Assembly: GCA_029945625.1 (NCBI GenBank)
Contig: JAQSCW010000007.1
Span: 1,460-49,396, forward strand
Length of the DNA: 47,937 nt
Source of the DNA: a bacterium
GTDB lineage: Bacteria; Bacteroidota; Bacteroidia; B-17B0; Aurantibacillaceae
Reading direction: 5' to 3'
Shown here: one piece after another, positions 1 through 42,098 of the stretch
Layout: every line of letters starts with the position of its first letter
Position numbering within the stretch: the stretch's first letter is position 1
Program-made: the position numbers and the translations under genes
Notes under the pieces: model-generated
What the model was told of the DNA's origin: nothing
What the model saw: only the letters and a program-made list of their open reading frames with translations
The model's database searches: none

Positions 1-3000
1 TTCCTTCGCGGTGTCCAATGTAACCGTAAATTCACTGCCGGTAATTAGTGTGAACAGTGGCACAATTTGTTCGGGAAGTTCATTTTTAATAATTCCAACA
101 GGGGCCCAGACCTATACATATACGGGAGGCACAGCACTTGTATCTCCAACTGTAAGCACAACTTATTCTGTGAGCGGAACGAGTTCAGCGGGATGCGTTG
201 GTGCCACTTCCGCACTAAGTTCAGTAACGGTTCATAGCTTACCGCTTATCACCGCCACTAGCGGCAGCATTTGTGAAGGAACTTCCTTTGCCATCATACC
301 ATCGGGTGCCGCTACGTATACCGTCAGCGGAGGCAGTTTGGTGGTGAGTCCAACGCTCACATCAACGTATTCCGTGTCGGGCACAAGTTCATTGGGATGT
401 GTTTCATCAACACCTGCTCTATCAACTGTCACGGTAAATCCCTATCCGACTGTAGGGGTGAATAGTGGTGTGATTTGTTCAGGTACTACCTTTACCATGA
501 CGGCAACGGGAGCGAGTTCGTACAGTTTTTCAGGGGGTTCAGCCATCGTGACGCCAAGTATTTCTTCTTCCTACACAGTAACCGGTATCAGTTCGGCGGG
601 ATGTTCTTCCTTCGCGGTGTCCAATGTAACCGTAAATTCACTGCCGGTAATTAGTGTGAACGGTGGAGGAGTTTGTTTGGGAAATTCCTTTACACTGAGT
701 CCAACGGGCGCTAGTAGCTATACCTATTCAAGTGGAACTGCCATCGTCTCACCAAGCAGCACCAGCAGCTATTCAATTACCGGAACCAATTCATTTGGTT
801 GTGTTTCACTTATTCCTGTTATTGCCACTGTTACTGTTAGTACTGTTTCAACAATAAGCGTGAACAGTGGCACCATGTGTAATGGAGATTCATTCACGTT
901 TTCACCAACGGGTGCGAGTAGTTATTCGTACACCGGTGGCTCCGCCATTGTTTCTCCCACGGTCACTTCAACATATACCATTTCGGGGAGCACTGCAGGT
1001 TGTCAGGCATTGCCTGCCGTAAGCACACTAACGGTTCGGGCCCTTCCTTTGTTAAGTGTAACGAATGGTTCACTCTGTTCGGGAGATTTATTTACTATTA
1101 GTCCTAGCGGCGCCGCTACATACACGTATTCAGGCGGGTCTTCCGTGGTGAGTCCGTCTGTTTCAACCAGTTATTCTGTAATTGGTAAGGACGCACAGGG
1201 TTGCGTTTCATTGCCAACCTTAGTGACCGTAAGCGTTTTTGCACGACCTACCGTAATAGCAGTCAATGGCACAATTTGCGCCGGCGCATCTTTTACACTG
1301 AGTGCTTCAGGTGCGTCCTCCTACAGTTATTCAAGTGGATCTGCCGTAGTTTCTCCTTCAATTAATGCCACGTACAGTGTTATTGGAACAAGTTCTGCTG
1401 GCTGTGCATCTGCGCCTGCTTTTTGCACGGTGAGTGTAAATCTTATACCACAAATTGCGGTTAACAGCGGCACTTTATGTGCGGGTACTACATTTACGCT
1501 AGCGCCAAGCGGAGCATTCAGTTATTCATTTTCGGGAGGATCAGCGGTTGTTTCACCCACAAGTAGCACGAGTTTTTCTGTAACTGGCACCAGTTCGGCA
1601 GGATGTACTTCTAGTGCTGCGGCAATAAGCAGCGTGGTAGTGTATGGTGCTCCTTTAATTAGTGTTTCCGGTGGTACTTCTTGTGCGGGGAACACATTTA
1701 CGATTTCTCCATCGGGTGCGGTTTCCTATACCTATTCTGGAGGCTCGGCAATTGTCGCCCCAACAGTGAGTAGCACGTACTCAGTTATAGGCACTGATGC
1801 ATTAGGTTGCAAGTCTACAATTCCGGGTACCTTGCTTGTGAATGTGTATACCTTACCCGTTATTTCGGTAAATAGTGGTGCCATCTGCATGGGAAATTCA
1901 TATACGCTTATTCCCGCAGGAGGAAATTCTTATACAGTTTCGGGCGGATCGACGGTTGTGAGTCCGACAACCACCTCCTCTTATTTTGTTCTTGGAACCA
2001 GTTCCGTAGGTTGTGTTTCGGCATCTCCAGCTATAGCTACTATGACGGTTAATGCATTACCTATCATTTCTGTTAACAGCGGATCAATCTGCGCAGGGAG
2101 CGTCTTCACTATGGTTCCCGGTGGAGCAAGTAGTTATACGTTCTCAGGTGGATCGGCTACAGTTTCCCCTGCATCCAATTCGCTTTATTCGGTATCCGGC
2201 ACGAGTACGGCGGGATGTATTTCTTTTTCTGCGGCAACTTCAAGTGTAGTTGTTAAATCGCTTCCTGCAATTACCGTTAATAGTGGCTCTGTATGCATGG
2301 GTAGCAGTTTTACAATTAATCCTTCCGGTGCATTCTCATATACAATTTCAGGGGGCAATTCAATTGTTCAACCCAGCGTGAGTACTGTTTATTCGGTAAC
2401 GGGCACCGGTACAAATGGCTGTTCTTCTTCTGCACCAGTTCTATCAAGTGTGAGTGCATTCTCTTTACCGGTAATAATTGTTACGAGTGGTTCTATTTGT
2501 GCAGGATCGAGTTTTGCCATTAATCCTACAGGAGCATTAACTTATACAATTACAGGTGGATCTGGCACCGTGAGTCCTCTTACCACAACAGCTTATAGCA
2601 TCAGTGGAACGGATGCTCAGGGATGTGTCTCAGCTAATTTGGCCATTTCTACGGTAACGGTTAACAGTTTGCCACTAGTTTCCGTGAATAGCGGCACAGT
2701 TTGTTCAGGATCAGTATTCATCTTAATTCCGGCGGGAGCTAGTACCTATACTTTTTCGACCGGCTCAGCTACAGTGCAGCCGACAGTTAACACCGGCTAT
2801 TCGGTAACCGGAACCAGCTCTGCAGGATGTGTGTCTGCTACTTCTGCTATTGCAAATGTCACCGTGGTACCTCTTCCCGTGTTAGCAGTGAATAACGGAA
2901 GTGTTTGTGCAGGGTCTTCTTTCACTCTGAATCCAAGCGGGGCCTTGACTTACTCATTTTCATCCGGATCATCTGTTGTAACACCAACTGCCAGCTCAAT

Positions 3001-3400
3001 GTACACAGTTACCGGCAGTGGAGCAGGCGGCTGTGTGGCGTTTAATAGTGCTATTTCTCAGGTTTTTGTTCGACCAGTACCCACAATTTCCGTTTCTAAT
3101 GGAACAGTATGTGCGGGAAATTCATTTACCTTAAGTCCAACAGGAGCATTTTCTTTTTCCTATTCTGGCGGGTCCGCGGTGGTTAGTCCCGCTATAACAA
3201 GTAACTATACTATTACCGGGAAAAATCAGTACAACTGCGCATCACAGTCTTTTGCTACCGTGTCTGTAATGCCTGTGCCATCATTAAGTATATTTGCGTC
3301 TCCGGAAGTTGTTTGCAGGGGAGAGAAGTCGACCTTAACGGTTTTTGGGGCTGATTCATATGTTTGGAATAATGCGTCAACAAGTTCCTCATTAATAGTG
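1..3400 (+). repeat. Tandem 200-bp coding repeats (about 17 units)
   Basis: These are the DNA counterpart of the 66-68 residue Ig-like modules. Most units have diverged, but bases 1-55 recur exactly at 607-661. That offset of 606 bp equals three repeats of 68, 68 and 66 codons, which points to a fairly recent duplication or conversion of a three-repeat block. Confidence 0.85.
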
Positions 3401-3748
3401 ATACCGCTTTCTAACAACACGTATTCAGTGACAGGTTTTTACGTGAATGGGTGCAAATCAAGCTCTAGTCATACACTTACGGTAAATGAATGTTTAGGAC
3501 TTCACTCGGTCCATCTTCCCGAACGCGATTTTGCTGTATATCCAAACCCTACTAGTGGAGAATTTGTGATAGAGGTCGACCGGGATTCAGAAATAGTCAT
3601 TGTAAATATGATTGGCGAAGTTGTTTTGACACAATTTATTCAAAGAGGCCTCAATAGTTTTGAGTTGGGTACTCAGGATAAAGGCGTTTATTTTATTTAT
3701 ATTAAGGGTAAGGAACACTTATCGGTAATTAAAATGATTAAGCAGTAA
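2..3748 (+). CDS. Giant Ig-like repeat surface protein with T9SS C-terminal sorting domain (5' partial)
   Basis: The frame is open to the left window edge, so the N-terminus and signal peptide are missing; the GTG at 11 lies inside a repeat and is not a real start. About 1245 residues show 16 clear repeats and one divergent repeat of 66-68 residues. Each has a CxGxxF/Y motif near its start, a TGAxSY(T/S) strand, a VSP turn, (Y/F)SVTGT and a second Cys in a GC pair. This matches the Ig-like CxG modules common in Bacteroidota adhesins. The two Cys per repeat could form a disulfide after export (inference). The last 75 residues start with FAVYPNPTSGEF and end in a Lys/Gln-tipped strand, a type A T9SS sorting domain, so the protein should be exported and anchored or released at the surface. 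Cargo function is unknown; an adhesin is most likely. Confidence 0.9.
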   Translation, partial: SFAVSNVTVNSLPVISVNSGTICSGSSFLIIPTGAQTYTYTGGTALVSPTVSTTYSVSGTSSAGCVGATSALSSVTVHSLPLITATSGSICEGTSFAIIPSGAATYTVSGGSLVVSPTLTSTYSVSGTSSLGCVSSTPALSTVTVNPYPTVGVNSGVICSGTTFTMTATGASSYSFSGGSAIVTPSISSSYTVTGISSAGCSSFAVSNVTVNSLPVISVNGGGVCLGNSFTLSPTGASSYTYSSGTAIVSPSSTSSYSITGTNSFGCVSLIPVIATVTVSTVSTISVNSGTMCNGDSFTFSPTGASSYSYTGGSAIVSPTVTSTYTISGSTAGCQALPAVSTLTVRALPLLSVTNGSLCSGDLFTISPSGAATYTYSGGSSVVSPSVSTSYSVIGKDAQGCVSLPTLVTVSVFARPTVIAVNGTICAGASFTLSASGASSYSYSSGSAVVSPSINATYSVIGTSSAGCASAPAFCTVSVNLIPQIAVNSGTLCAGTTFTLAPSGAFSYSFSGGSAVVSPTSSTSFSVTGTSSAGCTSSAAAISSVVVYGAPLISVSGGTSCAGNTFTISPSGAVSYTYSGGSAIVAPTVSSTYSVIGTDALGCKSTIPGTLLVNVYTLPVISVNSGAICMGNSYTLIPAGGNSYTVSGGSTVVSPTTTSSYFVLGTSSVGCVSASPAIATMTVNALPIISVNSGSICAGSVFTMVPGGASSYTFSGGSATVSPASNSLYSVSGTSTAGCISFSAATSSVVVKSLPAITVNSGSVCMGSSFTINPSGAFSYTISGGNSIVQPSVSTVYSVTGTGTNGCSSSAPVLSSVSAFSLPVIIVTSGSICAGSSFAINPTGALTYTITGGSGTVSPLTTTAYSISGTDAQGCVSANLAISTVTVNSLPLVSVNSGTVCSGSVFILIPAGASTYTFSTGSATVQPTVNTGYSVTGTSSAGCVSATSAIANVTVVPLPVLAVNNGSVCAGSSFTLNPSGALTYSFSSGSSVVTPTASSMYTVTGSGAGGCVAFNSAISQVFVRPVPTISVSNGTVCAGNSFTLSPTGAFSFSYSGGSAVVSPAITSNYTITGKNQYNCASQSFATVSVMPVPSLSIFASPEVVCRGEKSTLTVFGADSYVWNNASTSSSLIVIPLSNNTYSVTGFYVNGCKSSSSHTLTVNECLGLHSVHLPERDFAVYPNPTSGEFVIEVDRDSEIVIVNMIGEVVLTQFIQRGLNSFELGTQDKGVYFIYIKGKEHLSVIKMIKQ

Positions 3749-11889: not shown

Positions 11890-11983
11890 GATATTTCTCC
11901 GTATTGAAACGGGAAACTTGTGGATTTTTTCGTGGTATTCGCTAAACTATTTTTTACGACATTTAGGCCCACTAGTAATTTTT

Positions 11984-14221
11984 ATGAATAAACTCCTGCT
12001 TGCGCCCGTATTTTTTATAATCATCATCTTCTTGCAGTTTTGCAAAGAAGAAAAAAAGGAAATAGCGCTCAGGGCTCCCGACTATGTGGGTTCTCATACA
12101 TGCAAATCTTGCCACGTTAAGGAGTACGATAATTTCCTGCTGTCCGACCATTTCCATGCATTAGATAGCGCAAGTTCCAAATCAGTAAAGGGAAATTTTG
12201 AAAAGGCCTCTTTTGTTTATTTTGGGGATACTACTTTTTTTTATACTAGAAACGGAGATTATTTTGTAAGGACAATCGACTCAACTGGTCAGCATACAGA
12301 ATTCAGAATCAGCTATACTCTTGGATGGCAGCCCCTGCAACAATACCTTGTAAGTTTTCCTAGCGGACGCCTCCAAACACTTCCATTTTGTTGGGACACA
12401 CGTTCCAAAGAAAATGGAGGGCAACGCTGGTTTCATATTAATGACAAAGAGAAAATTTCACCCGGAGATGAATTATTTTGGACAGATATAAATATGAATT
12501 GGAACACGATGTGTGCCGATTGTCATACCACCGATTTCTATAAAAATTACGATGTAACAACGAATGAATTTCACAGCACATGGAAAGAAGATCGGGTATC
12601 GTGTGAATCCTGTCATGGGCCGGCTTCCAATCACCTGGCCTGGGTTAATGAAAAGAAAACCAAGAAAGATAGTCTGAAAGGATTTTCAATCGACCTCAAA
12701 GGCGAAAAACCCCAGTGGGTGATGAATTCTGAAAAAGGAATTGCCATGCCCGATCGAAAAACTGAAAATGGCATTCTGCTGGAAACCTGTGCACGTTGCC
12801 ACTCAAGGTCAACGCGATTATCTGACGAATACCGGCACGGAAAATCTTTGTTGCAAACCCATATGCCTGCTACTATTGATACCACTAACTATTACCTGGA
12901 CGGACAGATAAAGAATGAAGATTATGAGTACGGATCTTTTCTTCAAAGTAAAATGTACGCAGCAGGAGTAACTTGTATCAATTGTCATGAGGCACATTCG
13001 ATGAAAATAAAGGAAAAGGGAAATTTGCTCTGCAGTTCCTGTCATCTACCATCAAAATACGATGTTGCTGATCATACCCATCACACGCCGCAGAGTAAAG
13101 GATCGCAGTGCGTGAACTGTCACATGCCTGTTACAACCTTCATGGTGGTTGATAACCGGCTTGATCACAGTATTCGGATTCCTCGTCCCGACTTATCACT
13201 TCAGCAAGGCACGCCAAATGCCTGCAATACATGTCATACCGATAAAAGTACAACCTGGGCAGCAAACGCTTTTTCAAATTGGTTTGCTACTAAACTTCCC
13301 ACAAAAAAAACGTACGGTGAGCTCTTGCATCTCATATCAAAAAATGGGGTGGAGAGCCAATTCTGGTGGAATGAACTCATGAAATCGGAGTATCCCGACA
13401 TCATTAAAGCAAGTGCATTGCGTCAAAATAATAGGTTCTACAATAAAGAAAGCATTAATCAAATTTTGACACACCTCGAAAGCAGAGATCCTAATTTGCG
13501 ATTAAATGCCTTGAATGCCATGTCAGGCTTTCCCGATGAATTAGCAGTTAGTACACTTAGTAAAATGATAAAAGATCCGGTTCTGGCACTGCGTTTGGAA
13601 GTAATTTCAAAACTGGCACCTTTTTACTCAAAATTAGAAGGACGTGATAGAAGTGCATTCGAATTGGGTTTAAATGAATACCTCTTGGTGGAAGAGAAAT
13701 TGAGTGATCGACCTGAAGGCTACCTGAATCGGGGTATTATTCTTGCTTCTGTAGGCAGAGTGGGCGAAGCTGAAAAGGTGTATTTGCAAGGCATTACGCG
13801 TCACCCTATTTTCATAGGCTCTTACCTTAATTTGGCCGACCTTTATCGAACTCAAAAGAGGGATGACCTGGCAAAAATATACATGGAAAAAGGATTACGT
13901 CTTCAACCTTCCAATGCAGCGCTTCACTTTTCACTAGGACTATGGCATATCAGAATGAAGGACAAAGTAAGTGGGTTTAAAGAAATTGACAAAGCTCACC
14001 AGCTAGCTCCTTCCGATGCCTATTACACATACACCTATGCAGTCACAGTGCAGGAAAGCGGCGCGAAGGTTAAATCTCTCCAAATTCTTGAGAACTACTT
14101 GGCCCAATTTGGCAATGACCCGCTTATTCTGGATGCCCTGATCACTTTTTATCGTGATTTCGGAAATAACACAAAGGCAGTGTACTATAGTGATCTTAGA
14201 AGTAAGGTTTTTGGTTCTTAA
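11984..14221 (+). CDS. Octahaem c-type cytochrome lipoprotein with C-terminal TPR/HEAT-like repeats
   Basis: 745 residues from the ATG at 11984; the frame extends 22 codons upstream, but the lipoprotein leader starts here (hydrophobic run, lipobox FLQFC, lipidated Cys20). Eight CxxCH haem-binding motifs lie within about the first 430 residues: CKSCH, CADCH, CESCH, CARCH, CINCH, CSSCH, CVNCH and CNTCH. Spacing and flanks (YVGSHTCKSCH, SCESCHGPASNH) resemble the cytochrome c554 group of multihaem proteins. From about residue 500 to the end, helical repeats appear, first HEAT-like (RDPNLRLNALNAMSGFPDE) and then TPRs (PIFIGSYLNLADLYR, PSNAALHFSLGLWHIRMKD). It probably moves electrons in the periplasm or at the outer membrane and uses the TPRs to bind a partner. 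No oxidoreductase subunit is adjacent, so the substrate is unknown. Confidence 0.85.
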   Translation: MNKLLLAPVFFIIIIFLQFCKEEKKEIALRAPDYVGSHTCKSCHVKEYDNFLLSDHFHALDSASSKSVKGNFEKASFVYFGDTTFFYTRNGDYFVRTIDSTGQHTEFRISYTLGWQPLQQYLVSFPSGRLQTLPFCWDTRSKENGGQRWFHINDKEKISPGDELFWTDINMNWNTMCADCHTTDFYKNYDVTTNEFHSTWKEDRVSCESCHGPASNHLAWVNEKKTKKDSLKGFSIDLKGEKPQWVMNSEKGIAMPDRKTENGILLETCARCHSRSTRLSDEYRHGKSLLQTHMPATIDTTNYYLDGQIKNEDYEYGSFLQSKMYAAGVTCINCHEAHSMKIKEKGNLLCSSCHLPSKYDVADHTHHTPQSKGSQCVNCHMPVTTFMVVDNRLDHSIRIPRPDLSLQQGTPNACNTCHTDKSTTWAANAFSNWFATKLPTKKTYGELLHLISKNGVESQFWWNELMKSEYPDIIKASALRQNNRFYNKESINQILTHLESRDPNLRLNALNAMSGFPDELAVSTLSKMIKDPVLALRLEVISKLAPFYSKLEGRDRSAFELGLNEYLLVEEKLSDRPEGYLNRGIILASVGRVGEAEKVYLQGITRHPIFIGSYLNLADLYRTQKRDDLAKIYMEKGLRLQPSNAALHFSLGLWHIRMKDKVSGFKEIDKAHQLAPSDAYYTYTYAVTVQESGAKVKSLQILENYLAQFGNDPLILDALITFYRDFGNNTKAVYYSDLRSKVFGS

Positions 14222-20942: not shown

Positions 20943-21515
20943 ATACTCAAATTACTATTTGCCTATGTTTTATACCTATTTTTTATGTTGCGAACACATT
21001 CCGATTCTTTTAAGAACGTAGAAAATGAAGGTCAGGAAGAACAGAAGGAAAAATGGTCTTTGAGAAATTCACTTAACCTGCTCATTATTTCATCCACTGC
21101 AGTTGCTTTTTTGAGTGAATTATTGATAGGGGCGGCAGAGGCAATGGGCAATGCCATGGGAATGTCAACCGTATTTGTGGGTGTAATTTTTGTCGCCATT
21201 GTGGGTGCCGCCGGTAATATTCCGTCCGTTACCATGGCGTCAAATGGGAAAATGGACCTGAGTATCGGCATCGTGATGGGCAGTGCCATTCAACTTTCCC
21301 TATTTGTGGCCCCTCTATTGGCTCTTTTGAGTTTGATTGTCGGTCCACATCAGTTGACCCTTGAATTTTCAAGAATTCTACTCATCATCATTTTTTTAAG
21401 TGTGTTACCTGCTGCAGTCATAGCAGGAGACGGTCAATCTAATTGGTATAAGGGCGTGCAACTGATCATTATGTACATCATGATTGCTCTGATGTTTTTC
21501 TTTGTCCCGAATTAG
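20943..21515 (+). pseudogene. C-terminal half of a CAX-type Ca2+/H+ antiporter
   Basis: The longest ATG frame (20985) gives 176 residues. Similarity to CAX proteins starts about 14 codons earlier, from ILKLLFAYVLYLFFMLRTHS, the end of the first half in full-length antiporters (normally 350-400 residues). The N-terminal half is absent: only 148 bp separate this from the Omp85-type gene. The second-half helices are present (AVAFLSELLIGAAEAMG, TVFVGVIFVAIVGAAGN, MDLSIGIVMGSAIQ). The signature GNAAEH motif with the transport Glu reads GAAGNI here, so an essential acidic residue is missing. The frame itself is intact. Both the truncation and the changed motif argue for a non-functional remnant; a repurposed half-size protein is the alternative. 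Confidence 0.75.
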
Positions 21516-39306: not shown

Positions 39307-39732
39307 CTAGGGGACCCTTGTGCTGTTTTTTTGACCAATTCGTCCTGCCAGATATGCCATGGGAAGATAGGCACCCACCGCGTCCAAAATACTGAACCAA
39401 AGGGGAGAAGGCAGCATAATGATATTAGCAAGCCCTCCCGCTAAAAATAATACTCCTATGCCTAGGGCAAATTTCATGTGATGGCTTAAAGCCATTTTTG
39501 TGGTGAGAAATGCCCCAGCAAACGTTCCCAGAGCATGCGCTAAAAATGGCATAATAAAATGCTGCGGCCCAAATAAATGCATGGAGGCTTTTAATCCTTC
39601 AAGAGTTGTAACATCCGCGTCGATGGGGGGTGGAATGATAGAACTGCTAACCATGATGATGGCCATGTTTACCATACTTCCCACAAGGGCACCGGCCACA
39701 AAGGCCAAAAAGTTTCTGAGAATTAGGTTCAT
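39307..39732 (-). CDS. Small four-helix membrane protein, unknown
   Basis: 141 residues: FLAFVAGALVGSMVNMAIIM, HFIMPFLAHALGTFAGAFLT, FALGIGVLFLAGGLANIIML and SILDAVGAYLPMAYLAGRIG. The His-rich motif FGPQHFIMPFLAHALGT and Pro-rich IIPPPID after helix 1 recur in similar proteins of the phylum. No function is known. It is convergent with the DUF3667 gene, leaving a 32-bp gap. Confidence 0.75.
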   Translation of the reverse strand: MNLILRNFLAFVAGALVGSMVNMAIIMVSSSIIPPPIDADVTTLEGLKASMHLFGPQHFIMPFLAHALGTFAGAFLTTKMALSHHMKFALGIGVLFLAGGLANIIMLPSPLWFSILDAVGAYLPMAYLAGRIGQKNSTRVP

Positions 39733-40193: not shown

Positions 40194-41048
40194 ATGAAAA
40201 AAATTGCCCTCCTTTTCTGCTTGTTCATCTTGATTGTGTCGTGCCGGCAGGCACCCAAAGTAGAACCACCGGTTGTTAATGCGGTACCCGCCGAATGGGA
40301 ATTACCAAAGCTGCCCGCCAATGAGGAATTTGTGATTCGCAAAACCTTCAAAGGAGCCATGCGCACCTGTGAATTTTCGGCCATTATTTTACATTACTTA
40401 GAGGTAAAATATAAAATCCCGAAAGACAAAGTATTAATGGGTGTTTCCACCTGTGTAGATGATATTATCTACACCAAAAATTTCCATTCCAATCCCAATA
40501 TTAAAGGACTGTTTCATTTGGGTGGTTTGGCGGGATTACCGTTTACCGGTGTTTCCGGTTTAGGTGCCCTTTCGCATCACATTCCAGAGGGCGGCACCAT
40601 GTTGTTGTTGCTGGAACCTCATATTGGTTATTCGGCCGATAAAGGATGGGGGTATATTTTGAGATACGATCAGCACGCACCCAGCACCTGTTGTGGTGCT
40701 TTGATGGGAACTCTTTCTAAACTCAAAGACAATAAACTCACCGGCAAAGTGAGCGATGAGGACTATCAAGCCGATAAAATTGGTCAGTTCGCGTTGGAAC
40801 ACAAAGATCAAATCTTGAAGGCCGATATTCCCATCGTGGAATTTACTAAGATGATCTCCCGTGAATCTGAAAAGCAAATTAGAGAACACGTGATGCAAGT
40901 GGACATGGAACACATGAATTATATTGTGATCCTAACAGGGGTACTGATCAATACCGACTACAACTACTCGGATTACCAGGTAATCAAACACATTGTGATT
41001 TACGATGTAAAAAAGAAGACCTTTACAGAAGAAATCTTGATTCCCTGA
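40194..41048 (+). CDS. LCIB-type beta-carbonic anhydrase-like lipoprotein
   Basis: 284 residues with a lipobox leader (FILIVSC, Cys17), so it is predicted to sit at a membrane surface outside the cytoplasm. The core matches the LCIB (limiting-CO2-inducible B) family: STCVDDI with Cys87-x-Asp89, FHLGGLAGLPFTGVSGLGAL, SHHIPEGG (His128/129), LLLLEPHIGYSADKGWG and STCCGALMG (Cys166/167). LCIB proteins are unusual beta-type carbonic anhydrases with a Cys-His-Cys zinc site, known in algae and with bacterial homologues. The C-terminal quarter (helical, then VDMEHMNYIVILTGVLIN) is present. Activity is inferred, not proven; LCIB itself was inactive when tested alone. No transporter for bicarbonate is adjacent. 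Confidence 0.75.
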   Translation: MKKIALLFCLFILIVSCRQAPKVEPPVVNAVPAEWELPKLPANEEFVIRKTFKGAMRTCEFSAIILHYLEVKYKIPKDKVLMGVSTCVDDIIYTKNFHSNPNIKGLFHLGGLAGLPFTGVSGLGALSHHIPEGGTMLLLLEPHIGYSADKGWGYILRYDQHAPSTCCGALMGTLSKLKDNKLTGKVSDEDYQADKIGQFALEHKDQILKADIPIVEFTKMISRESEKQIREHVMQVDMEHMNYIVILTGVLINTDYNYSDYQVIKHIVIYDVKKKTFTEEILIP

Positions 41049-41381: not shown

Positions 41382-42098
41382 CTAAAAAAACAAATCGGCA
41401 AATTGCCCTCCGAGTGTTTGCCATACCAAGGAAAATCTGAACATCCACAGAATTTGAAAGAAGAATAGGAAAAACAAGCTGATGAGATAGGGTTTAGGGG
41501 AAGTTCCATTTTTTAGATCATAGAGGAGAAGTAGCACTGTGATGATTTCACTTATAAAGACGGAGGCGATGACGGATTGTGAAAATGATAATCCGCCATA
41601 GTTTTCTAAAATCCTACCAATACCCGGTCCAAATAGGAGTAGGGCAGCGGCTATTATGAAACGGATGTGATAGGCTGCATTTTTTCGGTAATAGATGGCT
41701 AAAGCAAACAAGGCTATAAAATAAAACATGCCACTTACGTTTAACGCAAGCTCTCCTATGTTTTCCTCTCTGGAAATGCGTGGGGCCATTCGGTTAAATT
41801 TGTCTTTTGAAACCAAAAAAATGGAAATAAAGATCAGTGGAACCAAACTAGCGGAGAATCGTCCCAATAGTTTGTGAGCTTTTTGCTTGCCCGATTGTAT
41901 TAAGAAGGGTTGAACGGTAAGCAGGATAAACCACATAAATAAAACGATGCCATGAAAGTGTTTGATTGCATTAATTCCTGCGAAATGGGGGAATAAGCTC
42001 CAATAGGGGCGATAGAAGCCTAAACACAATAAGAGGATGAGGATCACGAAAAGATAGCCGATATTTCTATATTCTTTTTCTAAATGTTTTAGTGGCAT
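41382..42098 (-). CDS. Seven-helix membrane protein, unknown family
   Basis: 238 residues with about seven hydrophobic segments. The first loop and helix 2 hold FHGIVLFMWFILLTVQPFLI followed by KAHKLLGRFSASLVPL; the paired His residues and this order resemble haem-binding cytochrome-b561-like or DUF2306-like membrane proteins, but the match is weak. The later part has AYHIRFIIAAALLLFGPGIGR. Function is unknown. It stands alone with gaps of more than 300 bp on both sides. Confidence 0.7.
   Translation of the reverse strand: MPLKHLEKEYRNIGYLFVILILLLCLGFYRPYWSLFPHFAGINAIKHFHGIVLFMWFILLTVQPFLIQSGKQKAHKLLGRFSASLVPLIFISIFLVSKDKFNRMAPRISREENIGELALNVSGMFYFIALFALAIYYRKNAAYHIRFIIAAALLLFGPGIGRILENYGGLSFSQSVIASVFISEIITVLLLLYDLKNGTSPKPYLISLFFLFFFQILWMFRFSLVWQTLGGQFADLFF

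Follow-up and report, generated by a model that had tools for sequence, protein, structure and literature searches.

A predicted lipid-anchored member of the LCIB (theta) carbonic anhydrase family in the Bacteroidota

The window, by which we mean the whole stretch of 47,937 nucleotides analysed here from a member of the Aurantibacillaceae (Bacteroidota), contains an open reading frame for a 284-aa protein of the LCIB family (Table 1), which starts at an ATG and is preceded by an in-frame stop four codons 5' of it. The nearest listed ORFs on either side (39307-39732 and 41382-42098) both lie on the minus strand, so the gene is probably monocistronic in the window, and an operon with its neighbours was discarded. 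A Pfam scan of nine proteins encoded near the gene, between 32 and 43.5 kb, found no bicarbonate transporter, and three of them have no family match; this agrees with the first-pass annotation, made from the sequence by itself, which had seen none nearby. The hairpin 3' of the gene is not special (z -0.75), and the promoter-like matches (8 versus 4.0 ± 1.9 in shuffles) were given no weight. Neither a tRNA nor an Rfam family reaching its gathering score was found in the window. A plasmid or phage origin was ruled against, as the LCIB protein had no tblastn match among 72,556 plasmid or 50,697 phage records. Elsewhere in the window we observed a multihaem cytochrome c554-like protein with C-terminal TPR repeats (11918-14221), a 1245-aa ORF rich in Ser, Gly and Thr with many similar units and, by eye, a sorting-like tail (11-3748), and a 176-aa ORF that by eye resembles half of a Ca2+/cation exchanger and may be truncated (20985-21515).

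Table 1. Features of the LCIB-family gene, in nucleotide positions of the window.
Feature	Position	Strand	Basis or remark
Gene for the LCIB/theta-CA family lipoprotein (predicted)	40194..41048	+	284 aa plus stop
Predicted type II signal peptide MKKIALLFCLFILIVS, residues 1-16	40194..40241	+	lipobox test; same kind of signal in four relatives
Cys17 (TGC), predicted to be lipidated; then RQAPK	40242..40244	+	without acidic lipoprotein export signal
Pro/Val-rich linker, residues 18-41	40245..40316	+	lower confidence in both models
LCIB catalytic domain (predicted), residues 42-284	40317..41045	+	VIA-align ranges 41-43 to 281-284 versus 6kfs and PtLCIB4 entries
Cys87, predicted zinc ligand 1	40452..40454	+	by alignment; matches the Cys directly before PtLCIB4 Ser47
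Asp89, conserved, presumed catalytic	40458..40460	+	alignment; role presumed from beta-CAs
His129, predicted zinc ligand 2	40578..40580	+	PtLCIB4 His88 by alignment
Arg157, invariant in 101/101 aligned rows	40662..40664	+	Arg also in the algal chains shown
Cys167, predicted zinc ligand 3 (not Cys166)	40692..40694	+	alignment

The protein belongs to the LCIB/theta carbonic anhydrase (CA) family. The first-pass annotation had proposed this identity from the order of four motifs, and all four are present (C-x-D at 87-89, HLGGLAGLPF at 108-117, SHHIPEGG at 127-134 and STCCGA at 164-169), with a resemblance far beyond chance: the match to PF18599 (LCIB_C_CA) scores 138.6 bits against a Pfam cut-off of 25, and the nearest solved chains by sequence are PtLCIB4 (5b5y, E 1.1e-18), 6kfs and 9vzj/9w05. 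Structure prediction, which could have revealed an unrelated fold, likewise returned an LCIB-like one. A first model, built from a 9-row alignment (pLDDT 79.4), reached Z values up to 28.4 to LCIB structures and a Foldseek E of 3.6e-18 to the LCIB fold, and a second model from 68 rows (pLDDT 90.3, pTM 0.85) was aligned by VIA-align to 6kfs (Z 29.3, 1.9 Å, 238 aligned residues) and to 5b5y (Z 29.2, 2.2 Å, 236 aligned residues), the matches spanning residues 41/42 to 282/284. The best classical beta-CA among the VIA-align matches listed reached a Z of 12.7, and the predicted fold is that of LCIB, nearer to LCIB structures than to classical beta-CAs. PtLCIB4 and 6kfs share with the window protein the fold of the whole domain, the Cys-His-Cys site and the Asp and Arg positions, but are only 23-25% identical to it over the structural alignment, and the window protein differs from them in being bacterial and in carrying a lipoprotein signal. 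The fold is also common to Chlamydomonas LCIB and LCIC (5k5w, 5b5x; Z 22.5 and 21.5, 16-18% identity), of which LCIB is placed around the pyrenoid in the chloroplast in a passage of PMC7215798, unlike the window protein.

The metal site was examined in an alignment of 101 domains, comprising five predicted lipoproteins (see below) and 96 other LCIBs. Cys87, Asp89, His129, Arg157 and Cys167 are all kept in the five lipoproteins, and among the 96 other rows His129 and Arg157 are kept in 96 each, Asp89 and Cys167 in 95 and Cys87 in 94. The PtLCIB4 residue that is mutated in entry 5b5z (H88A) falls on His129 in the alignment, and Val88 stands where PtLCIB4 has Ser47 (mutant names from PDB titles). 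The zinc ligands thus map, by alignment, to Cys87, His129 and Cys167. The first-pass annotation had named Cys87, His128 or His129, and Cys166: Cys87 stands and His129 is the probable metal histidine, but the third ligand would be Cys167 and not Cys166, because position 166 is Ser in several LCIB members that read SCGA. We infer that Cys87, His129 and Cys167 converge on one metal by homology to the solved chains, and we take Asp89 and Arg157 to be a catalytic pair by analogy with beta-CAs. Two further positions set the lipoproteins apart, since Asn92 and Tyr140 are lost in all five and kept in 88 and 93 of the 96 others, respectively; either the activity or the substrate could be tuned by this group-wide loss. 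An oxidising periplasm is an unusual setting for zinc held by Cys ligands, and this, like the second-shell changes, weighs against a CA there. Depletion of cysteines was considered as a sign of export and dropped, as their counts do not differ significantly between the lipoproteins and the other LCIBs (Mann-Whitney p 0.27). One cytosolic LCIB (L018, G257) has Gly at the position of Cys87, Ser at that of Cys167 and CSYP replacing CCGA, and is probably a metal-free pseudoenzyme.

The N-terminus of the window protein (MKKIALLFCLFILIVS followed by CRQAPK) combines M-K-K, a hydrophobic stretch and the lipobox I-V-S-C17 (LIVS/C). We applied a single set of rules (positively charged n-region, hydrophobic h-region, lipobox Cys) upstream of the domain to 102 distinct LCIB domains from 122 loci. 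The test was passed by five of them, namely the window protein, that of Chryseolinea serpens (L048, NZ_FQWQ01000002.1) and those of three other genomes, G1314 (L101), G1311 (L102) and G1031 (L071); none of the remaining 97 passed, with L063 and L072, which have no upstream Met, lying outside the test. The five lipoboxes read LIVSC, LYAC, LSSC, LISC and LISC, the N-termini otherwise diverge, and Lys and Arg are both absent from the n-region of the G1311 protein. Counted back from the domain, the closest Met is 36-46 residues away in the five; in those of the others that have an upstream Met, the distance is 19 residues or less. The lipobox that the first-pass annotation had read by eye is therefore real in so far as it passes the rules and recurs in four relatives, and the window protein would be, judged by its N-terminus, a lipoprotein precursor of the type processed by signal peptidase II (SPase II). 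Two of the other LCIBs lie in open frames of 582 and 601 aa (L003 in G044 and L074 in G1137); in L003 the first Met before the domain gives a protein of about 250 aa, and the two appear to be long open frames and not fusions.

As to the side of the membrane, a lipoprotein surface-export signal of the form K-(D/E)2 or Q-A-(D/E)2 is described for Capnocytophaga in a passage of PMC5080379. Neither form, a consensus that comes from other genera, follows the Cys in any of the five proteins, in which the next residues are RQAPK, GKIES, GKIEP, APKRT and SLKKQ. A periplasm-facing location in the outer membrane would be expected from this, and the periplasmic face of the outer membrane is the most likely location as predicted from that consensus.

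The five lipoproteins match PF18599 with similar strength, the other four scoring 135.5-158.3 bits. In an unrooted tree of 70 rows, computed from the domain alone after near-copies and short rows had been dropped, they make up one side of a branch (bootstrap/SH-aLRT 100/99) that occurs in 100% of 200 bootstrap trees. The C. serpens protein is 55% identical to the window protein, with which it shares the lipobox and the stretch CVDDIIYTKNFH but not the gene neighbours; the other three are 55, 40 and 36% identical to the window protein, and one of them is 87% identical to that of C. serpens. Among the matches listed, no LCIB outside the five exceeds 36%. The signal-less LCIBs of Bacteroidota and Balneolota, for example that of G026 (L002) in the same genus, are of the same family, with 24-36% identity to the window protein in the pairs compared, but differ in having no lipobox, in falling in a separate group of the tree and in mostly keeping Asn92 and Tyr140. 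The tree and the N-termini together indicate that the exported, lipid-anchored LCIBs are a separate small group in the Bacteroidota and not a one-off.

The searches for further members covered drawn samples of one phylum-level group, and the query's own genome, if it belonged to the sample, is included in each count. PF18599 was found in 3 of 60 near relatives and in 17 of 395 genomes of the class. By protein search, the LCIB family occurred in 35 of 395 genomes of the phylum (the locus was obtained for all but 5 of the 35 matches), in 4 of 87 of the window's order, in 32 of 390 of the C. serpens order (3 of 33 places without a locus) and in 25 of 196 of the G1031 family. A single-protein search of genome contigs gave no match, and its repeat with a three-row alignment found C. 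serpens. In the window's order the lipoprotein form was present in 1 of the 87 genomes searched, and the one other species of the genus with an LCIB (G026) has it without a signal. The lipoprotein LCIB thus has a rare and patchy distribution, compatible with transfer or with loss, and such a sporadic occurrence implies that its role is not a core one.

The complement of other carbonic anhydrases was compared across the five genomes. Each has at least two beta-CAs (PF00484), and the two of the window genome show no signal peptide when read by eye (among the best 8 of 15 beta-CA matches). Periplasmic alpha-CAs, whose fold is unrelated to LCIB, have in other Gram-negative bacteria the general role of equilibrating CO2 with bicarbonate. 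No alpha-CA (PF00194) was found in any of the five genomes, and a control search of 14 named genomes detected it in one. Within the alpha, beta and LCIB types of CA, the lipoprotein LCIB is the sole extracytoplasmic candidate found in the window genome. In this genome a beta-CA gene and an NrfD-type gene are about 7 kb apart (G000:C55:74873-83889); the latter, perhaps of an alternative complex III, has a product 30% identical to the NrfD discussed below.

The safest claim is that the LCIB encoded in the window is lipid-anchored and probably periplasmic, keeps its zinc site intact and belongs to an exported group of the Bacteroidota. Beyond this, we consider it reasonably probable that the protein is an exported, lipid-anchored LCIB-type (theta-class) CA that acts in the periplasm and replaces the usual alpha-CA, whose proposed place and job would be alike. 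SPase II would cleave after Ser16, Cys17 would be lipidated, and the protein would be placed in the outer membrane facing the periplasm. Zinc held by Cys87, His129 and Cys167, together with Asp89 and Arg157, would there interconvert CO2 and HCO3-, so that respiratory or ambient CO2 would be equilibrated with bicarbonate outside the cytoplasm; CO2 entering by diffusion would then be trapped again by the beta-CAs of the cytosol. The first-pass annotation had suggested CO2/HCO3- handling at the envelope or a different zinc chemistry; the first would agree with this reading, and the results speak neither for nor against the second. The CA action itself is likely but unproven, judging from the conserved site. 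In the LCIB structure paper of Jin et al. from 2016, three of six tested homologues were reportedly active. A review words the activity of the tested homologues differently in the passage concerned, and states there that purified Chlamydomonas-type LCIB proteins have no CA activity despite the fold and the zinc motif (PMC5876011), so that an intact site is no proof of activity. For the diatom theta-CA, on the other hand, a measured activity is quoted in a passage of PMC8132391.

Genes near some of the lipoprotein LCIBs raise another explanation, in which the protein is the partner of an envelope electron-transfer module and handles CO2/HCO3- or protons for its reaction. A set of envelope proteins comprising YceI, a DUF5777 barrel, cytochrome c, an Fe-S protein and NrfD recurs in these genomes (L139, G000:C19; L120 and L127; L123 and L126; L140), together with a small lipoprotein with a CxxCH-like stretch and no Pfam match, a further membrane protein and, in the G000 and G1031 copies, an EB_dh-like protein. 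In G1031 a gene for a lipoprotein-like protein follows the LCIB gene by 2 nt on the same strand, and the run continues with YceI (47.7 bits), the EB_dh-like protein, DUF5777, Fe-S and NrfD, although its EB_dh match (30.6 bits) is below the Pfam cut-off of 33.3. The NrfD gene of the set lies 4.9 kb before LCIB in G1314 and 14.5 kb after it in C. serpens. The window genome also carries such a set, with EB_dh at 56.8 bits, but on contig C19, unlinked in the assembly to the LCIB gene on C7; the last 400 bases of the two contigs share no 15-mer in either direction, and their adjacency is not supported. G1311 encodes the lipoprotein, but its NrfD is a distant one (28%). NrfD matches above 200 bits, a limit set after seeing a gap between 210 and 159 bits, occur in 26 of 196 genomes of the family, in 3 of the 4 with lipoprotein LCIB and in 0 of 21 with another LCIB, G1278, G1267, G1329 and G1250 being counted among the latter by similarity alone (31-35%, the match starting at query residue 36-43). 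The association gives a Fisher p of 0.0017 versus the genomes with other LCIBs and 0.0077 versus all, but C. serpens and G1314 are near relatives, and merging them yields 0.044. As the module was chosen after being seen, we treat the association as a lead, and inherited gene order could also account for it. A partnership of the window protein with the module is rather unlikely, and it is, in our view, a shade more doubtful that the exported group as a whole couples periplasmic CO2/HCO3- or proton chemistry to electron transfer in the NrfD module. Neither a paper on the NrfD/DUF5777/YceI module nor a redox-module CA role for the LCIB family was found in the open-licence PMC literature.

The same zinc site might instead serve, outside the cytoplasm, a hydrolase or lyase for another small substrate such as COS or CS2, given that the beta-CA fold includes a CS2 hydrolase (3ten, a weak match at rank 25, E 0.15) and that the second-shell changes at Asn92 and Tyr140 are common to the whole group; the zinc ligands and the Asp/Arg pair are however the family's own, none of the nine scanned neighbouring proteins matches a sulfur-metabolism family, and we regard this reading as improbable. 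It is still less probable that the protein is structural or regulatory without catalysis, as proposed for algal LCIB. Three LCIB-family proteins of the same fold are given as without CA activity, and a barrier role is proposed, in a passage of PMC5876011, but the ligand and Asp/Arg set is complete in all five lipoproteins, and the cytosolic LCIB that lost the set (L018) is visibly different. It is most unlikely that the protein is an ordinary cytosolic LCIB whose start codon was misread. The other LCIBs examined do read mostly as about 225-255 aa without a signal, and a shorter, cytosolic product could in principle start at an in-frame GTG at residue 47, where the domain begins. The conserved lipobox, however, argues against this as the main product, the reading frame continues unbroken through a canonical type II signal and a linker, the same arrangement is found in the four relatives, and residues 1 and 56, the latter inside the domain, have no in-frame ATG between them.

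The open papers found treat LCIB proteins almost exclusively as parts of algal CO2 concentration, and among open-licence PMC papers we found neither a functional study of bacterial members nor one on a lipoprotein LCIB. A diatom theta-CA is described in a passage of PMC7215798 as acting in the thylakoid lumen, a case of an LCIB relative outside a cytoplasm-like space. The separate, predicted lipid-anchored group with its conserved active site suggests a parallel, in that the family would have left the cytoplasm in bacteria too. The exported group offers a small soluble-domain test case of whether bacterial LCIBs are real carbonic anhydrases, and of the way in which zinc bound by Cys would function in the periplasm.
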